A stretch of DNA of 64,000 bases, from the NCBI GenBank assembly GCA_031763025.1, contig JASSKH010000002.1, positions 19,038,168-19,102,167 of the forward strand, given 5' to 3'. The position numbers and the translations under genes were made by a program. Source of the stretch: Macrocystis pyrifera. Its lineage: Eukaryota > Sar > Phaeophyceae > Laminariales > Laminariaceae. Shown one piece after another: positions 12,401 through 50,319 of this stretch. The notes under the pieces were generated by a model, which did not search any database, had not been told where the DNA came from, and was given only the letters and a program-made list of their open reading frames with translations. Position 1 is the first letter of the stretch. Each line of letters starts with the position of its first letter.

Positions 12401-12404
12401 TAAC

Positions 12405-12450
12405 AGTGTCGTTGCCAACCGACGCCAACCCAACCCATATATAATATATG
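12405..12450 (-). repeat. SINE family S, 5'-end fragment
   Basis: Read on the minus strand, the sequence following the poly(C) tail of the LINE copy is ATATATTATATATGGGTTGG, then GTCGGTTGGCAACGACACTG. This is the start of the S element seen in full at 14356-14894 and 47152-47677. It breaks off after about 45 bp. Confidence 0.7.
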
Positions 12451-12467
12451 CGGGGAGGGGGGGGGGG

Positions 12468-14355
12468 CGTACTCATTTGTTGCTTGCCTTAGTCATTTGA
12501 CCATTGACCACGCATCCCTTTCGAGACGGAGCACCGTTCCTACTCCTAATAGAGACACCTCCAACAATTGGGCGCTCATTACGTTGTTTCCATAAATTAC
12601 ATAGAAACTTTTTGCTAATCTTATCCCCTTCCTGTTTGGCCTCCTGTGGCCACCATCTATCTCCTAGGATAGCGATCGTTTTCTCGCTGCTTTTCATTGT
12701 ATCAAACTCCTCCATGTCACATTCGTCTATTTCCCTCATCTCCTCTTCTAATACATGCCGTTCCTCCTTGTATATTTCACGTTTTCCTACTATGTGAAAT
12801 CTACTCTCTATTGCTTCGCCACACGGGCACATCTGTACGTCTACTTCCTCCTCCTCCCGGCTACTGGTGTAGCTCTTTCTTCTTCCTGGCAGGTCCAGGT
12901 CACCTACACGAAATCGCAGTTTCAGCGATTTCGCCAAGTCCATTGGGCCATGCAAATATGTTTTCATTCCTATTCCTTCCCTCAATCCCCCGTATATCTC
13001 TAAGTCTTTTTCCGATTCCACCTTGCTTCTTATCGCTAGGCTTTCCCATCTTTCTATCCTTTCTTCTACTTCTTCCTTGTACCTCCCAAACTTCCCGGCG
13101 GACATCATCTCTTCTTGGTTTCCCCCTAATCCTTCCATACTTTCTCAACTACGCCATCCCACCTTATTCCAGCTCGCCCTTTTGTTACTTTCTCCCATAC
13201 AGCTCTATCAACTATGGCTGGCAACCTCTTTTTTGGCATGTCCTTTTTTTATTACCAGTTCAACTTTCTCATGTCTCTATTTGTCTTGAGTGGGCGCATT
13301 CCCAGTTCTGCTCTTAATACTGTATTACTAGTCGTACTTGAGCATCTTAGGATTTTTTTAGCTGCTGTCATTTGTACTGTTTCCAACTGTTTTACGAGTT
13401 TGGCGTTCCCTTCCCATACTTCTCCTGCATATTCTAGCTTTGGTACTATCACATTCATCAAGATACATCTCTTAATCCTTGTGTCAAGGTTCGGGTCTGT
13501 TGGGATCGCATCCATCTTGCCTACTTGTGCCTTACCCTTTCCTATTACTTTTCCTGTATGTGTATCCCAAGAACAGTCTTTTGAGATCTCTACGCCAAGG
13601 TATGTATACTGGTCTACGATCGGCAATTCATCTTCTCCCCAGTTCCGACTGAAATTTACCGGGTTTACCTTATCTTCGTTGCAAACAACTACTGCGCATT
13701 TCTTGACGTTCGCCGTCACCCTCCATTTCCTGGTGTATTCTAGCGCCTTCTCTATTTGTTTCTGCAATCCTTCGGGTGTTTCTGATATCCCAACGAAGTC
13801 ATCCGCAAACATCAATCACGACACCGTATCCTCCCCTACCGTGACTCCCTGCCTTGCTCCCTCGACGGCTACTATCAGGTCGTTAATATATATATATATT
13901 GAATAAGTTAGGTGACAACGTACATCCCTGTGTAACTCGTTGTAAAATATCAACATACTTCGATATTTCCCCGTCCAGCATTACAGCACTTCTCGCACAT
14001 TCCGTCATCTTTTTCATCATTCTCCACATCTTTCCTCTGATTCCTATTTCCCACAGTTTTTTCCACAATCCATTTCTCCATACTCTGTCGTAGGCTTTCT
14101 GCACATGTAGAAAGAAACAGTACGTTGTTAGTCCCGCGTCTTTCCTACCTCGAATAATCTTACCTAAGGTGTACACATGGTCTACGCAGCTACGGTTTGG
14201 CCTAAACCCTGCTTGCCCTTCGCTTATTTTGTTTTCCTTCTCCATCATCGTTCCCATTCTATCGTTCAAAATCTTACAAAATGTTTTGCCTACTGTGCTT
14301 AGTAGCGTTATCCCTCTATAGTTCCCCGGGTCAGCCTTATCTCCTTTCTTGAGTG
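12468..14355 (-). pseudogene. LINE (non-LTR retrotransposon) copy L1: 5'-truncated ORF2 with reverse transcriptase and C-terminal domain
   Basis: Frames at 14269-13883, 13815-13252 and 13138-12473 are consecutive parts of one ORF2 broken by a stop or frameshift near 13820-13880 (a TA repeat) and another near 13140-13250. In order they show the RT motifs GFRPNRSCVDHVYTL, the motif A block (FLHVQKAYDRV), motif B (TQGCTLSPNLFN), motif C (FADDFVG) and the YLGVEI block. A CPCG..H element lies in a 221-residue C-terminal frame. The first catalytic Asp of motif A is His here, so the copy is inactive. The 5' end is cut inside RT, and the 3' end runs into poly(C) (poly(G) on the + strand, 12452-12467). 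Confidence 0.92.
14308..14355. repeat. 48-bp direct repeat, inner copy (target duplication of SINE S1)
   Basis: These 48 bases (TTATCCCTCTATAG ... TTTCTTGAGTG) are identical to 14895-14942. They lie at the start of the L1 fragment, and the two copies bracket the S1 element exactly, as a long target-site duplication would. Confidence 0.8.
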
Positions 14356-14894
14356 GGGGGGGGTATACTCGATAGGAGAGATGTACTCGATCTCATGCAT
14401 GGCCGTAGTCGTATGACCGTAGACCCTCGCATCCCTACAATGCCGGGACGGAGCATTTCGGGTTTTCACCGACCAGGCAGACATTGCTTGCACCAAGCGC
14501 GAAGCGCCGTGAGGTGTCCGGCGAGTCGCATGAAGGGTGAGCTGCATCCTACTAGGAACCGCTTGTGAGGCGGACTTGCATATGGATGACAGCCTCAATG
14601 AGTTAGTTTAATTTCCGGTGTAGCCACTTCCAGAGACAGGAATGGGAGTACTATGTAACTGCCTCTTGGGTGCCTTACCTTGAACACTACGTGATACGAT
14701 CAATTCCCTTGTGTGGAGTAAAGGTTCTTTACTTCGCACAAATGATCTCACTCGACAACCAGCTGTGGGCGACCGCCAAAGAAAAAAAAAAAAAACGGTA
14801 CCCTGGATGTTTAGCTCACGTAGTGAGCGGCATGTTTTACAGTGTCATTGCCAACCGACGCCAACCCAACCCATATATAATATATAATGGGGGG
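14356..14894 (-). mobile_element. SINE family S, full-length copy S1
   Basis: About 540 bp, bounded by poly(C) on both sides (G runs at 14356-14363 and 14889-14894 on the + strand) and by the 48-bp direct repeat. It has no coding frame. On the minus strand it starts with an AT-rich leader and GGGTTGGGTTGG, has a T-rich tract in the middle, and ends in CTACGGCCATGCATGAGATC followed by GAGTA and poly(C). Its last 75 or so bases resemble the LINE 3' end. Other copies are at 17979-18505, 40742-41259 and 47152-47677, with fragments elsewhere. The origin of its 5' part is unknown; no clear tRNA, 5S or 7SL promoter was found. Confidence 0.85.
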
Positions 14895-14942
14895 TTATCC
14901 CTCTATAGTTCCCCGGGTCAGCCTTATCTCCTTTCTTGAGTG
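14895..14942. repeat. 48-bp direct repeat, outer copy
   Basis: Identical to 14308-14355. It sits between the poly(C) tail of LINE copy L2 (14944-14950) and the leading C run of S1. It therefore looks like an isolated 48-bp piece of LINE RT. Confidence 0.8.
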
Positions 14943-14950
14943 TGGGGGGG

Positions 14951-17428
14951 TGTACTCATTTTGTTGCTTGCCGTAGTCATTTGACCATTGACCACGCATC
15001 CCTTTCGAGACGGAGCACTGTTCCTACTCCTAATAGAGACACCTCCAACATTTCGGCGCTCATTACGTCATTTCCATATATTACATAGGAACGTTTTTGC
15101 TAGTATTATCCCCTTCCTGTCTGGCCGCCTGTGGCCACCATCTATCTCCTAGCATAGTGATCTTTTTCTCGCTTCTATTAATATCTAGTGTATCAAACTC
15201 CTCCATGTCACATTCGTTTATTTTCCTCATCTCTTCTGACACATCCCGTTACTCCTAGTACTTTTCGCATTGTACTATGTGAGTTCAACTCTCGATGGAT
15301 TTGCCACATGGGCACATCTGTGCATCTGCTTCCTCTTCCTCCCGGCTACTGGTATACCTCTTTCTTCTTTGTGGCAGGTCCTGGTCACGTACACGAAATC
15401 GCAGTTTCAGCGTTTTCGCGATTTCCATTGGGCCGTGCATATACGTTTTCATTCCTATCCTTCGCTCAATCCCCTGTATAACCGTACGTGTTTTTCCGAT
15501 TTCACCTTGTTTCTCAGCGCTAGCCTTTCCCTTCTATGTCTACTTCTGCCTTGTACTTTCCAAACTTCCCGGCGGACATCACCTCGTTTTGGTCCCTCCC
15601 TATATCCTTCCATACTTTTTCAACTACGCCATCCCACCTTATTCCAGCTCTCGCCCTTTTGTTTATTCCTCCCATACAGCTCTATCAACAATGGCTGGCA
15701 ACCTTTTGTTGGCATGCTCCTTGCTTTATATTGCCATTTCAACGTTCTTATGTCTCTTTGTCTTGAGTGGGTACATTCACAGTTCTGCTCTTAACACTGC
15801 GTTACTATTAGTAGTCGTTGATCATCTTCGGATTTTTTAGCTGCTGTCATCTGTCCTGTTTCCAACTCTTTTACGAATTTCGCGTTCCCTTCCGATACTT
15901 CTCCTGCATATTCTAGCTTTGGTACGATCACATTCATCAGGATACGTGTCTTGATCCTAGTGTCAAGGTGCAAGTCTGGTAGTATGGCATCCATCTTGCC
16001 TACGTGTGCTTTACCCTTTCCTATTACTTTTGCTATATTTGTATGCCAAGAGCAGTATTTTGATATATCTACGCCAAGGTACGTATACTGGTCGACGATC
16101 GGCGATTCGTCTTCTCCACACTCCCGACTGAAATTAACCGAATGCACCTTATCTTAGTTACAAGCAACTACTGCGCATTTTTTTACGTTCGCCTTCGCCC
16201 TCCGTTTCCTAGTGTACTATAGCGCATTATTTATTGCTTTCTTCAATCCTTCGGGTGTTTCTCATATCCCCACGAAGTCATCCGCAAACATAAATCCCGA
16301 CACCGTATCTTCTCCTACCGTGACCCCGTGCCTTGCTGCTTCGACTGTTACTATCAGGTCGTTAATATATACCTGGTATCTTGAATACTCGTAGGTTAGG
16401 TGACGACGTACATCCCTGTGCAACTGCGTGTAGAATATCAACATACTTTGATATTTCCCCGTCCAGCATCACAGCACTTGTCGCACATGCCGTTACCTTT
16501 TTCATCATTCTCCACATATTTCCTCTGATTCCTGTTTCCCACATATTTTTCCGCAATCCATTTCTCCGTACTGTGTCGTAGGCCTTTGTATATTTAAGAA
16601 GAAACAGTACGTTGTTTGTCCCGCGTCTTTCCTGCCTTGGATTACCTTGCCTAAGGTGTACACATGGTCTACGCAACTACGGTTTGGCCTTGACCGTGCT
16701 TGCCCTTCGCTTAATCTGTCTTCCTTCTCCATCATTGTTCTCAATTCTATCGTTCAATATCTTACGAAATGTTTTGCCTACAGTGCTTAGTAGCATTATC
16801 CCTCTATCGTTCCCCGGGTCAGCCTTATCTCCCTTCTTGAGTGGGTTTACTACTACCCCTTCTCTCCACCTTCCGGTGCTTACTCGTTTTTCCGTATCCA
16901 GTTGTACAATATTTCCATCATGGCAAGCATTCCTTCTCCCCCGTACTACGTAACTTCATTCGGTATGTGGTCTGCCCCTGCTGCCTTTGTATTCTTAAGT
17001 TTAGCTACACACTTTTTTACTCCTTGTGAACTCGCTGTAACCCTCCTGAACCACTGTCTTCCCTTTCTGATGCATCTACGTTCGCCACTTCCCACCGGTT
17101 GATTTTCGTGTTGAATTGTGCGTCGAATGTTTGATAGGCTGTGGGTGTTCCTAGCTTCCGGTAATTCCCTTTTCCCCTCGGAACTACTAACCATTTTACC
17201 GTTCTGTGCTGTAGCTATTTCCGTGTCTGCTTCTCCTCCTTGTTTTCCCGGTATCCCTTTTATCCCTACCCACATCTGGTTCATCCCGCCCTCAAAAGTC
17301 TTGATTCGTTTAATTTACTACTTCTTCCTTTCATATCCTTTTCTTCTTCTCCATCTCGTGTACTTTTTTTCTAGCTGTAGCATATTCCTCCCATCCTGTC
17401 GTAGTGTTACTCGATGTATATCTTGCGT
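14951..17428 (-). pseudogene. LINE copy L2: 5'-truncated ORF2, heavily decayed
   Basis: Same family and orientation as L1, covering more of the 5' side. RT pieces are readable: SRPNRSCVDHVYTLGKVI (about 16690-16640), VYINDLIV and FMFADDFVG (about 16350-16262), YLGVDISK and the WEG/SEGNAKFVKELET block (16147-15791). Many frameshifts and stops are present, and no frame retains the motif A aspartate. The 5' end begins immediately after the poly(C) tail of L5 at a point matching about 44940 of copy L3. It carries insertions absent from L1 and L3: TATTAATA at 15176, TACCTGGTA at 16370 and TACTCGTA at 16386. Confidence 0.88.
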
Positions 17429-17434
17429 GGGGGG

Positions 17435-17897
17435 CTGGCATACTCATTTGTTGCTTACCTTTGTCATTTGACCATTGACCACGTATCTGTGGAGCACCAT
17501 TGCTACTCCTAAGAGAGACAACTCCAACAGCTGGGCGCTTGTTAGGTTGTTTCCGTATATTACGTGGATTTTTTTACGAACCTTGTGTATGCCCTTCCTG
17601 TTTCGCCGACTGGCCACCATCTATTTCTTATTAGTAGGATAGCGATGGTTTTCTCTGTACTATGTAGTGTACCGAACTTCTCCGTGTCACATTCTTCTCT
17701 TTTCCTCGTATCCTCTTAACACAGCTCGTTCCTCCTTGTAAATTTCACGTACCCCCACTATGTATGTGACTTTTACTCTCTATTGCTTTGCCACAAGGGC
17801 ACATCTGTACATCTACTTTCACCTCCTACCGGCTTCTGTTGAAGCTTTTTCTTGTTTCTGACAGGTCCAAGTCCCTACACGAAATTGCAGTTTCATC
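17435..17897 (-). pseudogene. LINE copy L5: 3'-end fragment
   Basis: Corresponds to the last 450 bp or so of the LINE (C-terminal coding region and 3' end) and matches about 46690-47139 of L3 and 12470-12930 of L1. Its 3' end meets a C run (17429-17434 on the + strand as G). Its 5' end starts directly after the CCCCGCCC tract at 17901-17908. Confidence 0.8.
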
Positions 17898-17908
17898 GTT
17901 GGGCGGGG

Positions 17909-17969
17909 TATAATAATGTAAAACATGGCCGTATTCGTATAACCATTGAGCCTCGCACCCCTACAATGA
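17909..17969 (-). repeat. SINE family S, 5'-truncated 3' fragment
   Basis: A 60-bp piece containing only the S 3' end (GGTGCGAGGCTCAATGG ... ACGGCCATG). It lies between two C-rich tracts, so it is another 5'-truncated copy starting at poly(C). Confidence 0.7.
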
Positions 17970-17978
17970 GGGGGGGGG

Positions 17979-18505
17979 TGTATTCATTATCATAAATGAC
18001 CGTAGTCGTATGACCGTAGACCCTCGCATCCCTGCAATGGCGGGGCTGAGCACGTCGGGTTTTCACCGACCAGGCAGACATTGCGAGCACCAAGCGCTCA
18101 GCGCCGCGAAGTGTTGAGCGAGTCGCATAAAGGGTGAGCTGTATCCTACTATTAACCACATTTGGGGTGGATTTCCTTACATATAGATGACAGCGTCAAT
18201 CAATTGATTCATTCCTTAGTTTGGCCACGTTCAGAGACAGCAATGGGTTTACCATGTAACTGCCTCGTGGGCGCTTTACCATACACCTGGTACACATTAC
18301 GTGGTACAATCACCCCCCTTTTGCGAATTTGAGGTTCTTCCCGCACAAAAATGATGTAACTCGACCGCCAGCGGTGGTAACCGCCAAAAAAAAACAAACA
18401 ACAAAAAAAAAAAAAACGTTACCCTGGTTGTGTAGCTCACGCAGTGAGAGGCTTGTTTTACAGCGTCATCGCCAACCGACGCCAACCCAACCTATAAATA
18501 TACCA
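17979..18505 (-). mobile_element. SINE family S, copy S2
   Basis: Aligns with S1 over nearly its full length. Its poly(C) tail is 17970-17978 (G on the + strand). Two small extra blocks are present relative to S1: ACCTGGTA near 18285 and TACCAGGTA at 18501-18509 at its 5' border. Confidence 0.8.
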
Positions 18506-18509
18506 GGTA

Positions 18510-34929: not shown

Positions 34930-35027
34930 GTAAGCCAGACGATTGGGTTGCTTCCTTTGCAAGGTGCCAGGTATACATATGTAGGTTAGCTTCACAGGTG
35001 AAGATGGCTGGGGTGAGGTCGGGGGGG

Positions 35028-35265
35028 GAACCGGACTCATGCCAGACATGGGCGTAGTTTCATGTATGACCATAGACCCTCGCATCCCTACAATGTCGGG
35101 GCGTAGCAGGTCGGGTTTTCGACGACCAGGCGAACATTGTTGGCTTGCACCAAGCGCGAAGCGCCGGAGGTGTTTGGCTGGTCGCATGACGAGTGAGCTG
35201 TATCTACTAAGAACCACTTGTGAGGCGTGTTCTCTTGCAACATAGATGACCGCGTCGAATTAATT
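35028..35265 (-). repeat. SINE family S, 3' part, in the exchanger intron
   Basis: Matches the 3' half of S (GCGCTTCGCGCTTGGTGC, ATTGTAGGGATGCGAGGGTC, TATGGTCATA) in minus orientation, next to a short C run (G at 35019-35026 on the + strand). More diverged than S1, S4 and S5. Confidence 0.75.
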
Positions 35266-35274
35266 GACCCGCGG

Positions 35275-38310: not shown

Positions 38311-38776
38311 GTTAGTTTTTGGCGACAGCCTCCTCTTCGTACCCTGATTCGTTTCGGTTCAGGTCCATTTACTTGATTGCTTGCTTGTTCTCGTATTTGG
38401 TTTATGTCTCTCAATGTATCTGGATTGCCGGCGTGTGTATGTTGTGCCTTTGTGTCCAGTGCGATATCATTGCGTCGTCTTCTCTCCTGTTGCTGCATTA
38501 CAATGCAGTTTCTCTGTGTCGTGGTTTGGTGACCACCGAGCTTGTATCTCTTTCGGGCGAAGAATCAGCACGGACACTGGGTGTGCTGGATGTCGACGGG
38601 TGGAAAAAATGGTTCAATGTAAAAAACAGACACCCTTACCCTTCGCAACCCCACCTGCACCCCTTCCACCTCGACCAGTCCCACCCCCACCCAACTACAC
38701 CCACCCCCCCCATCCCCAGCCCCACCCAAAAGCCGCTGGCAAAACGTTTTTAGGTCAAAGATGAAAAAGGCAGTGA

Positions 38777-38882
38777 TCGCCAAAATGTTGGAGGTGTCTC
38801 TAATAGGAGCAGGAACGGTGCTCCGTCCCGAAAGGGATGCATGATTGATGTTGAATTGGCTAAGGCAAGCAGCAAATGAGAA
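38777..38882 (+). pseudogene. LINE copy L4a: extreme 3'-end fragment with poly(C) tail
   Basis: Contains the last 105 bp or so of the LINE (ATGTTGGAGGTGTCTCTA .. GCTCCGTC .. AAGGGATGC .. GCAAGCAGCAAATGAG). It ends in an interrupted poly(C) tract (38883-38903). Immediately upstream is a C-rich simple sequence (38640-38740). Confidence 0.8.
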
Positions 38883-38903
38883 CCCCCTCCCCCCCCCCCC
38901 CCC

Positions 38904-39195
38904 ATTACAAGGAGGAACGGGATGTGCTAGGAGCACATGAAGGAAATAGATTAATGGGACATGGAAGAGTTTGGGTACACTAGATAGCAGCAAGAGAACG
39001 ATCGCTATCCGAGGAGATAGATGGTGGCGACAGGCAGCAAAACGGGAAGGGGATAAGACTAGCAAAACGTTATTATATGGAAACTACATATTGAGCGCCC
39101 ACATGTTGGAGGTGTCTCTATTAGGAGTAGGAACGGCGCTCCATTCGAAAAGCATGCTTGGTCAACTGTCAAAATGACTAAGACAAGCAACAAAA
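38904..39195 (+). pseudogene. LINE copy L4b: 3' fragment starting at the L4a poly(C)
   Basis: Starts at ATTACAAGGAGGAACGGGAT directly after the C run and corresponds to about 46835-47130 of L3. Its own 3' tail is lost: CAAGCAACAAAAT runs straight into the internal part of an S element. Confidence 0.8.
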
Positions 39196-39473
39196 TCTCT
39201 GGAAATGGCCACACCGGAAATTAAACTAACTCATTGAAGCTGTCATCCATATGCAAGTCCGCGTCACAAGCGGTTCTTAGTAGGATGCGGCTCACCCTTC
39301 ATGCGACTCGCCGGACACCTCACGGCGCTTCGCGCTTGGTGCAAGCAAGGTCTGCCTGGTCGGTGAAAACCCGACATGCTCCGTCCCGGCATTGTAGGGA
39401 TGCGAGGGTCTATGGTCATACGACTACGGCCATGCATGAGATGGAGTACATCTCTCCTATCGAGTACACCCCT
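39196..39473 (+). mobile_element. SINE family S, copy S3 (5' part missing)
   Basis: Carries the downstream half of S from CTCTGGAAATGGCCACACCGG through GATGGAGTACATCTCTCC. It is followed by one of the longest C runs in the window (about 39474-39497, with one T). Same orientation as the host gene. Confidence 0.85.
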
Positions 39474-39499
39474 CCCCCCCCCCCCCCCCCCCCCCCCGA

Positions 39500-39905
39500 C
39501 CAGCGCGGCTAATTGCACTTCTACAACTGCAGCACTATTTCCAATACACACGCTATTACCCGTGTTTTACGGGAGGAGCAGTGGTGTTTTAGGGGCGAAA
39601 CGCGTTGCGGGGCCAAGATCAATAGACGACTAGCCCTCCGTTGTTTGGTCGGATCGCCCATACCACCCTCACCCTGATCCCACCCGGACCTGCATCCCGT
39701 TTGGCACCTTGCTCCCACTTGGTGGTGTCGAAATATAATCGCCATCTGCGCAGGAGCCCGCTGGAGGCGTAGAACATGAGGCGGGAACCGTAATCGTGTG
39801 CGTTTCAATTGAATCAGTGCTGCGGTTCTAGAATAGCAAATAGCCCCGCTCTACCCCGACGCCCAACCCCACCCCTACCCCCCCACTCCAGCCCTACCCC
39901 CCTTG
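39500..39905. other. Intron sequence, no gene recognised
   Basis: C-rich, with no recognisable frame or repeat partner in the window. Confidence 0.4.
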
Positions 39906-39907
39906 AA

Positions 39908-40115
39908 ACGTCATCCATATGCAGGAAAGTCCGCCTCACAGGCGGTCCTTAGTAGGATGCAGATCACCCTTCATGCGACTCGCTGAAAACCTCACGGCGC
40001 TTCACGCCTGGTGCAATCAGTGTCATGCTCCGCCCCGACATTTTAGAGAGGCGAGGGTCTATCGTCATACGACTACGGCCATGCATGATATCGAGTATAC
40101 CCTCCCACCTCAACC
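39908..40115 (+). repeat. SINE family S, copy S6 (3' part, diverged)
   Basis: Matches the S 3' half (CGTCATCCATATGCAGG .. GTAGGATGCAG .. CATGCGACTCGCTG .. GACTACGGCCATGCATGAT). It lacks an internal segment around GTCTGCCTGGTCGGTGAAAA, and it has only a short C-rich tail. Confidence 0.75.
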
Positions 40116-40416
40116 CACGTGAATGTTGGCAGGGATTTATGCGTTGAAAAGCGGGGTTTCTTCATATACATGCACCACGTACGTACTTCGTGTAGCACCA
40201 GCTTTGGCTTTCTGGTTGTGTCTAATGAAACATTAGTTTAGTTATGTTGGCAGGGATGTATGCGTTGAACAAACGTAAATTATTTCAAGTACATCCATGA
40301 CGTACGTACGTACTTTGTGTAGCATCAACTTTGGCGTTTTGGTGTTGTCTACTTGTCATCACAACTATTTACTAGATTGCTTGTTCTGTTTGTTTTTTTA
40401 CCCTCCCCACCTCGGC

Positions 40417-40482
40417 ACTGTAGGGATGCGAGGGTCTATGGTCACACGAATTTGGCCATACACGATATCGAGTACACCCCCC
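40417..40482 (+). repeat. SINE family S, 3'-end fragment S7
   Basis: Only the final 65 bp are present (CACTGTAGGGATGCGAGGGT .. GGCCATACACGATATCGAG), with a short C tail. The 5' breakpoint follows a CCTCCCCACC tract. Confidence 0.75.
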
Positions 40483-40741
40483 ACCCCACCATCCTCTAAA
40501 TCTGGATGGGTCGGCGTCGAGTGGCGACGACGCTGTCAAACAGTCACCAGACACTAGGCTGCAATGCGCAGACTGCCCCTTCCCGCACAACTGCCACATA
40601 GACCAGACATAGACACTACGCAAACAACAGCTCAAAAAAGATACCCACAGGAATAGGAAAACACAACACAATAAATAACCAAACCAGTTATTTTCCCATT
40701 TGTTGTTATACCCTTTTCCCTGCGAAGTCGATGATACCCCC

Positions 40742-41259
40742 CCACACACACCTACTGTAGTATTATATACGGTATAGGTTAGGTTGGCGTCAGTTGGCAA
40801 CGGCACTGTAGAACATGTCGCTCGCTACTTGAGCTAGGCAACCAGGGCACCGTTTTTTTTGTTTTCGGTCGGTCACAGCTGGTGGTTGAGTTATAGATAA
40901 TTTATGCGAGGGGAATGATCGTTTTAAGTTATGATAAGGCACCAAGAGGCACTTACGTAGTACTCCCAGCGCTGTCTGTGGAAGTGGCTACACCGGGAAT
41001 TATATTAACTCATTGAAGCTGTCCTCCATATGCAAGTCCGCCTCACAAACGGTTCTTAGTAGGATGCAGCTCACCCTTCATGCGACTCGCCCAACACCTC
41101 ACGGCGCTTCGCGCTTGGTGCAAGAAATGTCTGCCTGGTCGGTGGAAACCCGACATGCTCCGTCCCGGCATTGTAGGGATGCGAGGGTCTATGGTCATAC
41201 GGGTTCGGCCATGCATGAGATCGAGTACATCTCTCCTATTGAGTCCCAACCCCCCCCCG
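40742..41259 (+). mobile_element. SINE family S, full-length copy S4
   Basis: Preceded by a C run (about 40734-40741). Begins with the TAGTATTATATACGGTATAGG leader (AT-rich leader plus GGTTAGGTTGG), continues through the T-rich middle and the 3' conserved half, and ends in CCCAACCCCCCCCC at about 41246-41259. About 85% similar to S5 by eye. Confidence 0.85.
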
Positions 41260-41930
41260 TACCCTGTCATTCTGCGTCGGCTGCGTCACATTATTGTTGG
41301 TTTGTGTGACCGTTTGCTATTTTTTCTTTTTTTCCGACTCTGTTGACATGTTTCTTGGCCCGTCTGTTTCTGTCCGCTTTCTGTCGGTTATGTCGTCCTT
41401 GACCCTCCAACTGGACAGGACTGCTCGTTTTTCGTTTCTTGTTAGCTCTGTGTCTTTACCCTCTTGTTGTCTTGTTGCCCTCCATCTGGCCTTCGTGTGG
41501 CGTCCTTGTGTTGGTATATCAGCTGGGATATCATAGGACTGATCGTACCAGCAAACAGCAACCTTGTCCTCGGGACTCGGCGTGCGCCTTGAGCGCATGT
41601 TTGCTTTTTCTTCGCTCCTGTATTTTTTATTTTTTTCCCCTTTCTTCTTCCTTCTCTCTTCCGTGTTTTCCTTTTCTCTTTTTCCTTTTCTTTCTTTTCA
41701 AGTGTACATATAATACCATGGATATATTCCTGGTGTTATTTGTTGCAAGTGATACGGGATGGTGTACCGCAGCTCGTACGTACCGTTTCCCTTACGGACT
41801 GGTATGGTACTCCCGTGCGCAACTATTTCGTACTTGCTTGTTTTCTCTTCTCGACATGCATTCTTGCTGCAGCCTGTCTTTGTGACCGCAGGCAGGACTT
41901 CAGGGAAGTGAGCTAATGTGATAACACCAT
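41260..41930. other. Intron sequence, no gene recognised
   Basis: T/C-rich (41600-41700), with no recognisable exon or element. Confidence 0.4.
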
Positions 41931-41934
41931 CACT

Positions 41935-42410
41935 GTTCTCCCATACTAAAATACAAGACCAAATTTAAGCATGAAAGCTCTCAATTAATATTTTTTTTCT
42001 CATACCAAAACGCAAAAACCAGATTAGGACGTGAAACAGTTGAACTAACTACAATAGTTTTTTTTCCCCCTTATCATACCCAAACCGGATTATAGACCTG
42101 AAATTACTCAACTGAGTACTATTTTTTCTCGTACCAAAACGTAAAATTCATGTATCGACTGCAACAATTGAACTAACCAGTTTTTTCCCTTTTGGTAACA
42201 CAAACTAGATTAAGACATAAAATGACTCAACTACCCACTTTTTTCCCACACCAAAACACAAAAATCAGATATAGATCTGATATTACTGGTCTAACCGTTT
42301 TTTTCTCATACCAAAACACAAAAATCAAGTGTAGACTTGATATTACTGGTCTAACCAGTTTTTTCCTCCCATATCGAAACACAAACCAGATACCTCTCGC
42401 TCTCCGGGGC
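41935..42410. repeat. Tandem array of about eight 55-60-bp units
   Basis: Each unit reads roughly TTTTTTCTCATACCAAAAC followed by a CAAAAATCAGAT segment, a short inverted motif (for example AGATATAGATCT) and a CTGGTCTAACCA-like end. The two units at about 42240-42360 are nearly identical; the outer ones are more diverged. Lies in the long exchanger intron. Confidence 0.8.
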
Positions 42411-42599
42411 ATTAAAAAAAAAAAATACCTGGTGCAAGACATGCAAAAAACAAATACATAGTTTCCCCCATATCGTAACACCGGTAGTAAAGGCACGAAG
42501 CATAAACCAAAAACCTAGCGTAAAGGCGAACCACCTCACATGCAGATACAGACACAGCAAGGTAACCCCGACATGCTCAATTAACACGAAGCTTGGGTC

Positions 42600-43855
42600 T
42601 CGGAGTAGTATGCCTGCAAAAAAACTACCTATTTCCAATGGGCGGTGGAAATCTGGTCTGACGTTATTCCTAAAAGCCACGACATTAGGTGGACATGCCA
42701 TGCGCCAAATGAAGGGAAGGTGTGGATCATGCATGACATTAAGTCAAGACCTATTATACTCATGAAGCAAGCACCTTGCAATTGACCGACCACATGACCA
42801 AAGAGAAGGAGCACCAAGCGGTATGCAGGTATCTTGATGTCTTGAAGGATGGAAGCCGGTACACAATGTGGGGGGGATCGTTGGTCAAGTTTCGACAGCG
42901 AAGGTCTACTCGGGAGCATTAGTGATGTAGCTACCCATGGCGAAACGTCCATAAGACGGAGAAAGCGACATACGGGGTATCCCGGTGTGTGAGTAAGACG
43001 TTGGATTACGTAAGCCGTCCTTGAACCTTGCACGGTAGAATCTACCTCCCTAGAGGAAATTAACCAGTACAGCAGCGGGGCAAGAAGATAGAAGATACGA
43101 TCGTGGGACGCCAGGATGGTTACCGTGTAGATCGCCTGACACAAAGTTGGGGTACTTGTGTTGAGGGTGCTGAATTTGGCTCGAGGCTACGAGCCTGTTG
43201 GAGACACTGTTTGGTGTGGTGCGCGCCGGCAAGAGTACTGAGAGACACCAGACCCTCAACGAAAAATTGGATTGGGAAGTCCCAGTAACTTGGACACTAC
43301 CCACTACGAATATGAACACAAACAAACTGGATATATTGTCGGGAAAGATCAGGAGAAAGACAATGAGGCAGGGTGGGTGGAGAAAGGAAGATTGGTAGAG
43401 TAAAGTGCTAATAGTGCTCATGTATGGAGTTCCTAGCGACGCGACGAGGATTGAGTTCCAAGAGGAAGTGCGACAAAGTAAGATTATACTGCTTTGCAAT
43501 AGGAAAAATAGAACCAGAGGGAGAACACTTTCGAGTCACGCTAAAGCCGGAAGCGAGCATGGCGGGGCAGCGAATAATGACAGAAAAAGTGTCGGCATGG
43601 GTTAGAAGACTAGGATGGAGAGTATGTATAGCTAATATCAAAGCGAAACTAAGACGTAGTCCTAGGGTGAACGAAGGTAAGGGGAGGCAGAAAACAGTTG
43701 GTGGCCCAAAGAGAATGAGGGAGAAACATGGGGATGCAGAGCAAGCAGACAAAACCAGAAACGGAAACGGCGAGAAAGCTCAAAGAGAGAATAGAAATAT
43801 TCGAAGCTACAACGGAGAAGGAAAAACAGACTTGAAGAGCGTGAATAGTGAAACG
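42600..43855 (+). pseudogene. LINE copy L3: probable 5' region and ORF1, decayed
   Basis: Broken + strand frames precede the endonuclease: YFQWAVEIWSDVIP (about 42627), MTKEKEHQAVCRYLDVLKDG (about 42795), VLIVLMYGVPSD (about 43408) and IGKIEPEGEHFRVTLKPEAS (about 43500). The last two, a short hydrophobic strand with YG followed by a second strand pattern, recall RRM-like ORF1 proteins of LINEs. The region then becomes Lys/Arg/Glu-rich. The 5' limit of the element is not determinable, because no other copy reaches this far. Confidence 0.4.
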
Positions 43856-46800
43856 AAAAAGAGGCTGAGAGTAGGATCGTGGGACGTATGTGGATTCGCC
43901 ACGGTAGAGCGCAACAGGATGGAAATTGCCGAACAAGTAAGCGCGACCTAGAACGTAGTGGTAATTCAAGAGTCGTGGGAGAAAAAGGGGGGGGAAATAG
44001 AATGCAAAGTTGGAGAGTACGCATGGATAGGGAAATGACATAATAGCAAGAATAGGGGGTCGTGCGGCGTAGGGTTCCTAGTCAAAGAATACCTGTGTGG
44101 CGTACCAGAAGTGGTCAAAGACACTAAATTCGACGAAAGCTTATGGATGAAGGTACCATTGGATCAAGGAGAGAAATATTACTTGCCAGGAAACATCTAC
44201 AGTATATGTCCCCAGAGTCGAAGAGTACGGTAATATGTGTACAACGGACGTTCGGAGGAGTAGCAGCAGATGTACAGAAGTGTAAAAGGCAAGGAGACTT
44301 AGTACCAGTGGGAGATTTTAGCTCAAGAATTGGGAAGGCAAGCAACCCCAATGAGAACATTGTACAATATGGGAAAAGTAACAATTGATAAGAATGGGGA
44401 AGACATGTTGAGGTTCCTTGAGCACAACGAAATGAAGACGTTGAACGACAGAGTAAAAAAGGCCAGAATGGACTAGGCAGTGTATACAAAAGATAGAAAG
44501 CTCTCTCCTTGATTTTTAGTGGTCGAAAACGAAAGTAGCAAGGAAACGGAAACACATGTATGCGCAGCGGACGTAGGAACTGCGGGTCACTGTCTAATAA
44601 GGACAGCCAGTCAGCAGACGAAACATATAATAAATAGGCGAGGCAGGAATTGTACAGATGGGAAAGTAGAAGTGAAAGAAAAACGGGAAGGGATCCAGGA
44701 GGAGATGGTTAAAATTTCAAAAAGTGCAGATCAATTTCCCTAGCTGTTGGAAATAATAGGTACGACAAAGAATTGTATAAAGAGGAATAATGCAGGAGCT
44801 AGGATAATAGAAGGACGGGAGCAATTGGTCAAGACCGCAGCAAGTAAAGTGATCGGGAAGAAGTTGATAGTATGCAATAGAGCAGTAAAATGGTGGGACG
44901 AGGAAGTGAAAGAGGCTATCAGAGTAAGGAGAAAGGCACACGCAATATATACATCGAGTGAAACTACGACAGGATGGGAGGAATATGCTAAAGGTCAATA
45001 GAAATAAAAGGGGTGGTGTAGAAGTACAAAGGGATTTAGAGAGACGTAGTAAACGAATGAAGATTTTGCGGGCGAGATGAAGCACATGTGGGCAGCGATA
45101 AAACGGATACTGGGCGAACAAGCAGTAGAAGCAGACACGGGAACACAGAACAGCAAAATGGTTAGTTCGAAGGGGAAAAGGGAAATGCTAGTAGTGCATT
45201 GCCGTAAGCTAGGAACGCCCACAGCCAACGGAACTTTTGACGCATAATTCGAGATGGGAATCAAGGCGTGGGCAGAGGCGAACGTAGATGCACCAGGAAG
45301 GGAAGGCAGTGGTTCAGAAGGGTTACAAGGAGAGTTCACAAAGGCAGAAGTAAATAAGTGTGTAGCGTAACTTTAGGGAGACAAAATAAGCAAAGGGCAA
45401 AGAGGGTCTAGGCCAAACCGTAGCTGTGGAGACCATGTGTACAATTTACGTAAGATTATCCAAGGTGGGAAAGGGGGGAGGCTAATAACGTACTGTCTCT
45501 TTCGAGATCTGCAGAAGGTATACGACACAGTATGGAGAAATGGATTGTGGAAAAAGCTGTGGGAAATAGGGATCAGAGGGAAGATGCAAAATGAGGAGGA
45601 GGATGATGGAATGTGCGAGGAGTGCTGTGTTGCTAGACGGGGAAATATCGTAGTATGTTGATATACAAGGAGTTACCCAGGGATATACGTTATCACCTAA
45701 TCTATTCAAGATCTAAATATATATATACAAAACTGCGACCTGATAGTAGCAGTTGAAACAGCAAAGCAGGGAGTCATGGGGGAAGATACGGTATCGAGAT
45801 TGATGTTTGTGGATGGCTTCGTGGGGGTATCAGAAACACCCGAGATTGCAGAAATGAATAAAGAAGACGCTACAATAGAATACCCTAGGAAATGGAGGGT
45901 GACGGCGAACATACAAGAAGGACACAGTAGTTGTATGTAACGAAGATAAGGCGAACCCGGTAAATTTCATTTGGAAGTGGGGAGAAGGTGAATTGCCGAT
46001 CGTAGACCAGTATTCGTGCCTTGGCGTAAAAATCTCAAATTTCTGCTCTTGCGATACACACATAGCAAAAGCAATAGGGAAGGGTAAAACACGTAGGCAA
46101 AGTGGATGCGATCCTAACAGACTCGCACCTTGACACTAGGATCAAGAGATGTATCCTGATGTGATAGTACCAAAGCTAGAATATGCAGGAGAAGTATGGA
46201 AAGGCAACCTTAAGTTCGTAAAACAGTTGAAAACAGTAGAGATGACAGCAGCTAAAAAAAAATATGCGCTTAAGTACGATGAGTAATGCAGTGTTGAGAG
46301 CAGAACTTGAGGCGCTCCTACTTCAGACAGGTAGACATGAAAACGTTGAAATGGCAATATAAAGCAAGGAACATGCCAAGAAAAAGATTGCCAGCCATTG
46401 TTGGTACATTTGTACGGGAGAAAGCAACAAAGGGGCGAGCTGGCATAAGGTGGGATAGCGTAGTTGAGAAAGTATGGAAGGATTTAGGAGGAAACCCAGA
46501 AGGGGTGATGTCCGCAGAGAAGCTTGGGAGGTACAAGGCTGAAGTAGAAGAAATTATAGAAAGAAGGGAAAAGCTAGCGCTAAGAAACAAGGTGAAATCG
46601 GAAAAACACTTATGGTTATACGGGGGATTAAGCGAAGGGATAGGAATGAAAACGAATTTGCACGGCCCAATGGACTTCGCGAAAACGCTGAAACTGTGAT
46701 TTGGTGTAGGTGACCTAGGCCTGCCAGAAAGAAGAAAGAGGTATACCAGTAGCCGGGCGGAGGAGGAAGTAGATGCACAGATGTGCCCGTGTGGCAAAGC

Positions 46801-47139
46801 AATAGACCCACGTAGTAGGAGAACGTGAGAATTGTACACGGAGGAACGGGATGTGTTCGAAGAGAAAATGAGGGAAATGAACGAATGTGACATGGAGAAG
46901 TTTGGTACGCTAGATAGCAGCGAGATAACGATCGCTATCCTAGGAGATGGATGGTGGCCACAGGCGGCGAAACAGGAAGGGGGTAATATTAGCAAAAGGT
47001 ATCCGAGTAATAAATGGGAACAACGTAATGAGCGCCCAACTGTCGGAGGTGTCTTTTTTAGGAGTAGAGACGGTGCTCCGTCTCGAAAGGGATGCGTGGT
47101 CAATGGTTGAATGACTAAAGCAAGCAACAAATGAGAACC
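43856..47139 (+). pseudogene. LINE copy L3: ORF2 (APE endonuclease, reverse transcriptase, C-terminal domain), decayed
   Basis: The longest copy. Endonuclease pieces: LRVGSWDVCGFATVERNRME (43863), NVVVIQESWEKKG, SCGVGFLVKEYLCGV. RT pieces: RPNRSCGDHVYNLRKII (45412), LFRDLQKVYDTVWRNGLWKK (motif A, Asp kept), FVDGFVG (motif C, normally FADD, second Asp lost) and CLGVKIS. The C-terminal part (46318-47110) is more open and includes MCPCGKA and RWDSVVEKVWKDLGGNPEG. Multiple stops and frameshifts make it non-functional. It ends in poly(C) at 47140-47151, directly followed by an S element. It lies in sense orientation in the exchanger intron. Confidence 0.9.
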
Positions 47140-47151
47140 TCCCCCCCCCCC

Positions 47152-47677
47152 TAGTTTATATATATTGTATGGGTTGGGTTGGTGTCGGTTGGCAACGACA
47201 CTGTAAAACATGACGCTCACTACGTGAGCTAGACATCCAGGGTACCGTTATTTTCTTTTTTTCTTTTTTTTGGCGGTTGCCCACAGCTAGTCGTCTAGTT
47301 AGACCATTTGTGCGAAGTGAAGAACCTTTACTCTGCACAAGGGAATTGATCGTATCACGTAGTGTTCAAGGTAAGGCACCCAAGAGACAGTTATATAGTA
47401 CTCCCATTGCTGCCTCTGGAAGTGGCCACACCGGAAATTAAACTAACTCATTGAAGCTGTCATCCGTACGCAAGTCCGCCTCACAAGCGTTTCTTAGTAG
47501 GATGCAGCTCACCCTTCATGCGACTCGCCGGACACCTCACGGCGCTTCGCGCTTGGTGCAAGCAATGTCTGCCTGGTCGGTGAAAACCCGACATGCTCCG
47601 TCCCGGCATTGTAGGGATGCGAGGGTCTATGGTCATACGACTACGGCCATGCATGATATCGGGTACACCCCCCCCCC
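47152..47677 (+). mobile_element. SINE family S, full-length copy S5
   Basis: Starts right after the L3 poly(C), at TAGTTTATATATATTGTATG. It is nearly identical to S1 through the conserved 3' half and ends GATATCGGGTACA plus 9-10 C. It stops about 65 bp before the third exchanger exon. Confidence 0.88.
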
Positions 47678-47744
47678 TCGCTCAGCGCTCACCATCCCCA
47701 CCCTCACCCCTACCTCCACCCCCACTCTTCGTCATTCCTGGCAG

Positions 47745-47873
47745 GGGTACGCATTGAAAAAGCGGAATTTCTTCAAATATTTCCACTACATCTTCAGTTT
47801 CGGGTTCCTGGGGACGGTCATCCAGTTCATCACCATCACCGTGCTCGCCTTGTACGCCAGCAACTCTCAATAC
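47745..47873 (+). CDS. Na+/H+ exchanger (SLC9/NHE-like), third recognised exon
   Basis: A 129-nt exon (43 codons, phase 0 at both ends) between CATTCCTGGCAG and the donor GTGAGATAT. It reads GYALKKRNFFKYFHYIFSFG, then FLGTVIQFITITVLALYASN. Joined to the previous exon this gives LPPIIFHQ/GYALKKRNFF, matching the invariant NHE order (LPPIIF..GY.LK+..FF..L..I..F..LGT). The helix after it is the expected next membrane segment. The following exon (ISATDPV and GESLLND region in the family) was not found in the remaining 16 kb. Confidence 0.93.
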
Positions 47874-49728: not shown

Positions 49729-50205
49729 GCGAATTTGTGTTGGGTGGGTAATTATTACCTTGGTATATGTGTCTTAGTTGGGGCTATGAGTTGGCTGAAG
49801 TTCCCACCTAGCTTCGCCAGCCAACTACAGTAGGCGACTAAAGGGTCCGCCCGAGGCCAAAAGTACGCGATTTGGCTTCGTTTTACACTCAAAAAGTATG
49901 ACAATTCGGCCAGGTTTGTCTTTGATTTTTATCACGAAAGGTCAAGTTTAAAGTTCGTCTCCGTTTATCAGACTTGATAGGGATGCACCAGAAATATGGA
50001 CATGCTATCCCTGTTTGGAGGTCTCTCACTGGTGTTACATTTTGTCGTAACGGTAGATACTCTTGAGGCACGCAGTAGCAGACCACCAGTAAAATAACAC
50101 AAAGAATAACATAAACAACAGACTGGGACCTCTTCGACGACAGGAGCATAGATAATAAGTTATGCATCGCCGGCGATTCAGTGATTCACGAACGGTTCAT
50201 AGTTA

Positions 50206-50310
50206 TCACGGGGGTCCATAGTTAACGGGACCAAATTTTGTTATTAAAAATAGGAAAATATAGAGGTTTTTATGTACACCGTAGGACCTGTTAACTATGG
50301 ACCCCCGTAA
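50206..50310. mobile_element. MITE M1, second copy, 105 bp
   Basis: Same length as the copy at 2612-2716 and its reverse complement, with TA on both sides (50204-50205 and 50311-50312). The left end has TCACGGGGG where the consensus is TTACGGGGG. The inner sequence is AT-rich and non-coding. Confidence 0.88.
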
Positions 50311-50319
50311 TAGCAATCA

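Follow-up and report, generated by a model that had tools for sequence, protein, structure and literature searches.

Why do copies of a long interspersed nuclear element (LINE) and of a much shorter element lie head to tail on one strand, joined at runs of C? The question is raised by a 64,000-nucleotide stretch of the Macrocystis pyrifera genome (G000:C200:19038168-19102167, hereafter the window, whose coordinates are used for all features listed below), in which a first-pass annotation had described such a chain on the minus strand and proposed insertion targeted to poly(C). We analysed the two elements, here called L (the LINE) and S, in the window and in the whole assembly (537,376,219 bases, 223 contigs). 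It is very probable that L and S both end in poly(C) and insert in one orientation at C-runs, with the tails seeding later insertions.

L is a kelp LINE of the apurinic/apyrimidinic endonuclease (APE) type. In copy L097 its endonuclease matches PF03372 (E 5.9e-12, 46.2 bits against a cut-off of 24.5) and also PF14529 (2.7e-6), and the L reverse transcriptase matches RVT_1 (E 2.3e-31). Against solved structures the reverse transcriptase scores about equally with 8c8j (75 bits), LINE-1 ORF2p chains (73-74.5 bits, E ~6e-20) and an R2 protein (71.5 bits). The first-pass annotation had proposed to look for endonuclease relatives with a known target preference; this comparison placed the enzyme as APE-type and confirmed no relative with a matching preference. 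A protein search of the whole genome, using part of the endonuclease, gave 152 matches from the best 150 of 1226 candidates scored, and at least one long open frame, of 1137 amino acids, holds one of them. The L reference is a single full-length copy of 5972 bases including a miniature inverted-repeat transposable element (MITE) (L055+L020), and the points of 5' truncation vary among genomic copies in the anchored sample described below.

The 3' ends of both L and S typically read GAGTAC followed by a C-run; across 30 LINE loci a usual form is GAGTACG and then a C-run, often of 10 to 60 C. The run left by an insertion has a median of 12-14 C and reaches 80 at most. The tails of L are thus C-runs and not the poly(A) of an L1-like family. 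The exact L 3' 22-mer occurs 3856 times genome-wide on both strands, 1936 of them on the forward strand, where CCCCCC is found within 6 nt after it at 1705 sites (counted on the forward strand, as the reverse-strand count is inflated by sliding). Most L and S copies of the window likewise have a C-run at the 3' end or close to it, the exceptions being L4b and the last S head.

S is a ~0.5 kb element that resembles L over ~35 bp at the 5' end, where its head is like the LINE's own, and over ~60 bp at the 3' end. This likeness at both ends suggests that S is a non-autonomous partner mobilised by L. Its exact 3' 26-mer occurs 8585 times genome-wide, and its exact 28-base head 1126 times on the forward and 1157 times on the reverse strand. 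ARAGORN found no tRNA in the window and no Rfam family reached its gathering score, with no test made for an RNA polymerase III promoter. A hepatitis delta virus (HDV)-like ribozyme at the common 5' head was considered and rejected, being without Rfam support and with folds of four S heads giving z from -1.44 to 0.03. No relatives were found in viral contigs.

Upstream junctions were scored in two samples. The first, of 265,734 bases, comprised the window, 29 LINE loci (without L001, which repeats the window, and with upstream extension of six) and, from three contigs, 20 stretches at round positions. BLAST chains gave 127 hits, from which we removed 35 hits to the MITE of the reference copy, 5 copies whose 5' side is lost at the end of a stretch and 2 continuations of split copies, leaving 85 copies. 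A run of at least five C (C5+) lay within 40 bp upstream of 64 of these (L 35/43, S 29/42) and a run of at least five G upstream of none, with a background of 4.1% of 40-mers outside L and S and 5.2% in the 20 round-position stretches. Chained copies had such a run in 32 of 37 cases. The first-pass annotation would have given up targeting if most copies outside the clusters lacked an upstream C-run; among the 48 copies with no L or S tail detected within 130 bp upstream, 32 had one.

The second, anchored sample was chosen by the exact L 3' 22-mer alone, from 100 matches listed and with the flanks unseen at the time of choice, and gave 39 copies on contigs C16 to C126 (40 stretches, two being halves of one). 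C5+ lay within 40 bp at 35 of the 37 5' junctions inside a stretch, the exceptions being L082 and L093, and again no G5+ was seen. Four copies on small contigs (L059, L064, L066 and L067) belong to a single duplicated L/S structure and are truncated at the same point; counting that structure once leaves 32 of 34 events (binomial tail 3e-39 against 5.17%). The signal is concentrated at the junction, with C5+ in the last 20 bp before 85% of anchored events, in the preceding bin before 38% and in bins beyond 40 bp before 3-19%; the corresponding values in the first sample are 72%, 28% and 7-19%. Long runs are over-represented: C8+ stands upstream in 23 of 34 anchored events, whereas 16 of the 329 runs of C4+ counted in 19 other stretches (without L037) are that long. 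Genome-wide, CCCCC lies 8-38 bp upstream of 1032 of the 1157 reverse-strand S heads and GGGGG of 3, while GGGGG precedes forward-strand heads in 2 cases; random positions have CCCCC in this interval in 615 of 13,800 trials (4.5%). The CCCCC count is taken from the reverse strand, with one place per site among the matches listed, as the forward count of 8519 slides along the run. Insertions are accordingly concentrated at C-runs far above the 4-5% background, inside and outside chains and on one strand, and poly(C)-targeted insertion as first proposed is supported.

Target-site duplications indicate which came earlier, the C-run or the element. For 108 of 119 copies with measurable tail and flanks, shared words of at least 6 bp were found in 13, compared with a mean of 2.1 and a maximum of 6 in 300 shuffles; an earlier and weaker prefix-only test (at least 4 bp in 8/60, shuffled mean 1.4, maximum 7) also favours duplications. 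They are mostly 6-10 bp long and, in this minority of copies, start at the C-run or a few bases after it, examples being GAGGTGAT (L014), TTCCACGT (L095) and TACTTG after only CCCC (L030). At such sites the element and its C tail stand between the two units of the duplication, and the C-run comes before the first unit. The target therefore already held the C-run when the element inserted. Where the target is itself an L or S tail, a prior C-run would be expected in any case, because unfilled copies mostly end in C-runs. Nested L copies at L005 show TGC, TGCAC and then TGCACT in the flank after successive C-runs, as expected from repeated insertion at one C-run edge.

The minus-strand chain of the window (12403-18505) has the order that was first described, and its members are as follows (Cn, a run of n C).

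17979-18505, minus strand: S2, full-length S, with a C9 tail (17970-17978); its own 5' junction lacks a C5+ run
17901-17969, minus strand: 5'-truncated S fragment directly following S2's C9; the S part spans ~17909-17969 and it ends in CCCCGCCC (17901-17908)
17429-17900, minus strand: L5, 5'-truncated LINE copy (L part 17441-17900) starting at CCCCGCCC, with a C6 tail (17429-17434) and 79% identity to young L
14944-17428, minus strand: L2, 5'-truncated LINE copy beginning at L5's C6, with a C7 tail (14944-14950) and 85% identity to young L
14894-14943, minus strand: 5' piece of window copy L1 (L part 14894-14939), the left unit of a 49-bp direct repeat around S1; the repeat is at the C7 run
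14889-14894, minus strand: C6 run between this 5' piece and S1
14355-14888, minus strand: S1, full-length S within window copy L1, with a C9 tail (14355-14363)
12457-14352, minus strand: the rest of window copy L1, 5'-truncated LINE (L part 12469-14352) with reverse transcriptase fragments, a C11 tail (12457-12467) and ~96% identity to the best other genomic copies
12403-12449, minus strand: 5' head of an S copy directly after window copy L1's tail, the 3' part being absent

S1 divides window copy L1, with the 49-bp direct repeat on both sides; the right unit begins at a C-run and the left unit one base after one. The chain is confirmed as first described, except that the last S piece is a 5' head lacking its 3' part and so is not 5'-truncated. 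L5 follows CCCCGCCC and has no C5+ within 40 bp. Given that the C-run signal lies close to the junction, that it is also seen with no L or S tail upstream, and that duplications occur, the best reading of the chains is one of repeated insertion into poly(C), earlier tails included.

Other origins of the chains and of the C-run signal have to be weighed against this reading. The reverse transcriptase might leave one RNA and jump to the C tail of another within a single insertion, which would build head-to-tail chains with no target preference and yield truncated copies that begin right at the preceding member's C tail, and 37 of the 85 first-sample copies do have an L or S copy within 130 bp upstream. 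The other 48 have no such tail detected, yet 32 of them still begin at C5+; moreover, the downstream flank is duplicated between chain members at L014, L011 and L005, and divergence is unequal along the window chain (L5 78.9%, L2 85.3%, window copy L1 95.5%), so that template jumping is very unlikely. The differing divergence and truncation points, together with the target-site duplications of some members, also dispose of the idea, raised by the first-pass annotation as a possible refutation, that a single segmental or tandem duplication produced the chains. The four anchored copies sharing one structure are an instance of such duplication and were counted as one event; the others have their own truncation points and flanks, chain flanks and breakpoints are unrelated, and we give this explanation almost no weight.

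If insertion were unselective and the 5' end of the new DNA were joined to C-runs by microhomology, the C-run would show where the 5' end was joined, not where the strand was nicked. As microhomology would have it, the element's first aligned base directly abuts the C-run in 28 of 106 copies with a nearby C4+ (anchored 8/33, first sample 20/73), but a gap separates the two in the remaining 78, and at sites with a duplication the duplicated bases come after the C-run, so that the C-run predates insertion; such joining is very unlikely to account for the signal. A preference for C-rich regions such as intron ends, from which C-runs would follow by composition, is improbable. It would fit the C-richness of the 3' flanks, which extends ~60 bp and falls from 50% C to 29% (65 flanks), and the position of some copies just upstream of exons, whereas the C-run signal is confined mainly to the last 20-40 bp, is strand-specific (1032 against 3) and strengthens with longer runs. 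Assembly itself could join unrelated reads at long C-runs: a lichen study reports that two PacBio contigs were chimeric, with their joins at long poly C/G stretches (PMC12542154), and C-run lengths in the present assembly may be wrong. A false join, however, requires a C-run on both sides and so could not put one in front of an element; the runs at old copies are short (4-9 C), and the duplications agree on either side of the element, which makes an artefact extremely unlikely.

Several observations nevertheless weigh against repeated insertion at poly(C). C5+ is missing within 40 bp in 21 of the 85 first-sample copies, including S2, S4, S8, S9 and L5 of the window, and for 11 of the 85 no C tail was found adjoining the copy. 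The C-run upstream of S could partly belong to the 5' end of S itself, a problem from which the truncated L copies are free, and some C-runs that look like host DNA may be old tails, of L, S or related families, that escaped detection. Only a minority of copies have a clear duplication, and chance may account for some of the 13. No repeat-embedded empty site was found among the flanks within the fetched sequence, none having been searched for genome-wide. The downstream member is the younger in 9 of 18 same-family pairs (L-L 8/10, S-S 1/8); the rule that it always should be, which simple insertion into tails suggests, is unsupported overall and was dropped.

Insertion at poly(C) could proceed as follows. 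The LINE endonuclease would nick the G-rich strand at or inside the run, and the G-ended 3' end would pair with the C tail of an L or S RNA and prime reverse transcription. The top strand would then be cut a few bases downstream. Reverse transcription would often end prematurely, so that the new copy is 5'-truncated and starts at the C-run or a few bases after it. Because most insertions leave a new C-run, the tail would become a target in its turn, and same-strand chains and nests would accumulate. We tentatively go a step further, with a proposal that is plausible but short of probable: since RNA tail and DNA target would be the same homopolymer, each insertion would make a fresh target and the family would feed its own spread, and in host genes the C-rich tract before the 3' splice site would be one landing place, where the incoming C tail could replace that tract and make intron insertions less harmful.

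The window contains further copies, mostly on the plus strand.

38739-38903, plus strand: L4a, short 3' end of a LINE, preceded by C-rich DNA and with a C15 tail (38889-38903)
38906-39194, plus strand: L4b, 5'-truncated LINE copy beginning at L4a's C15, its own C tail missing
39196-39497, plus strand: S4, 5'-truncated S joined to L4b, with a C24 tail (39474-39497)
39910-40112, plus strand: S7, 5'-truncated S preceded by a C-rich stretch with CCCCCC at 39897-39902
40413-40482, plus strand: S8, 3' fragment of S ending in a C6 tail, immediately before the L3 5' head and lacking a C5+ run at its 5' junction
40501-47151, plus strand: L3, near-full-length old LINE copy broken by S6, with endonuclease and reverse transcriptase remnants and a C11 tail (47141-47151)
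40758-41258, plus strand: S6, S copy within the 5' part of L3, downstream of C7 (40737-40743) and with a C9 tail
47157-47677, plus strand: S5, full-length S after L3's C11, with a C10 tail (47668-47677)
35021-35267, minus strand: S9, old truncated S with a C8 tail and C-rich DNA further upstream, and no C5+ within 40 bp of its aligned 5' end

The two plus-strand junctions first noted, L4b after the C15 of L4a and S5 after the C11 of L3, are both present. S4 (39196) is joined to L4b at the point where the 'gagtac-C' tail of L4b is absent. L3 extends further than earlier marked, with its 5' head at ~40501 and S6 within its 5' part; its 5' region also contains direct repeats ~60 bp apart (42171-42385, self-match of 42171-42322 with 42229-42385), which are matched in L055 as well. 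Another element of ~110 bp, beginning TATTACGGGGG, lies at 2610-2719 and 50204-50313 of the window, has many copies on both strands of the sampled stretches and occurs also within the LINE copy of L020.

L or S tails adjoin 9 of the 16 C8+ runs in the window and only 1 of 47 in the 20 other stretches, for which reason L/S tails were dropped as an explanation for the genome's C-runs. L037 has a C-rich tract of ~0.7 kb (1778-2500) with dozens of long C-runs and no L or S copy detected. In L050, at ~2044-2120 on the plus strand and at 1191 in minus-strand coordinates, short stretches missed by the L and S references end in GAGTA or GAGTAGTA and are followed by long C-runs; these may be tails of related families.

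Some insertions lie close to host exons. In two sulfatase paralogues (PF00884, 2.7e-8 and 4.5e-8), L copies at L008 (3059-3194) and L073 (2231-2357 as oriented) occupy C-rich tracts immediately before the same exon; they differ in truncation point and in age (97% and 83%). Weaker cases involve GH30 (L011), tyrosinase (L076) and a Na+/H+ exchanger downstream of S5; in the last, the interval directly following S5 (47678-47870) holds a C-rich stretch and CAG and then an exchanger-like exon at ~47746 (Pfam 0.0063, below the cut-off). Pfam searches of 25 anchored flanks gave two sense exons (sulfatase, and a weak tyrosinase at 0.0083, below the cut-off) and one antisense, the latter a Cu/Zn superoxide dismutase exon in the downstream flank of L089 on the strand opposite to the inserted L (PF00080, 1e-12). 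Eight further frames, hand-picked from flanks of the first sample and the window, gave one sulfatase, three matches below the cut-off (GH30, Na+/H+ exchanger and amfpi-1) and four without match. With so few near-exon cases no site preference at host exons can be claimed, nor, at two sense against one antisense, any bias in orientation with respect to host genes.

In the literature searched we found no LINE having both a poly(C) tail and a poly(C) target; that literature covers subscription journals only in part, and the result is not proof of absence. The available portions of papers on chicken simple repeats (PMC4992247), L1 endonuclease on overhangs (PMC12809410) and assembly joins (PMC12542154) contain no such element. 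Simple repeats are targets elsewhere, as in L: TRAS/SART of Bombyx target telomeric repeats (PMC7265360, in excerpt) and Togen or HERO elements microsatellites (PMC4640811, in excerpt). In SART1, by the same excerpt of PMC7265360, the target has to be telomeric and the tail a longer poly(A), so that tail and target differ, whereas in L they are the same simple sequence. In another brown alga, Ectocarpus, the ~600 bp non-autonomous RTEX-N1_Ec32 has more than 6000 copies and a 3' end in common with an RTE-X LINE (PMC12477816, in part), which resembles L and S, compared by description only, in its abundance and shared LINE 3' end; the portion of that paper available mentions neither C tail nor C target. 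This analogy, with an abundant RTE-X LINE and its ~600 bp partner, is the one pointer to a clade and suggests RTE-X for L. RTE insertion sites do not appear sequence-specific in the part of PMC2887409 available. What would be new is the combination of poly(C) tail and poly(C) target, simple repeats being already known as LINE targets.

RIME/ingi and NARTc/L1Tc of trypanosomatids also pair a LINE with a short non-autonomous element sharing both of its ends, and are comparable to L and S in outline only, with tail and target being different. LINE-1 uses a T-rich target strand and a poly(A) RNA, its homopolymer tail being complementary to the nicked strand, and inserts into earlier tails. L has in common with it the APE-type endonuclease, a tail homopolymer complementary to the strand that would be nicked, and insertion into earlier tails, and differs in that tail and target are C and G instead of A and T. 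L, present in thousands of copies, would be a transposon able to make its own target, and could offer a clean test of how far base-pairing between target primer and RNA tail, as opposed to protein recognition alone, sets the target choice of a LINE; its rule would, in outline, be that of LINE-1 with the letters changed to G and C.

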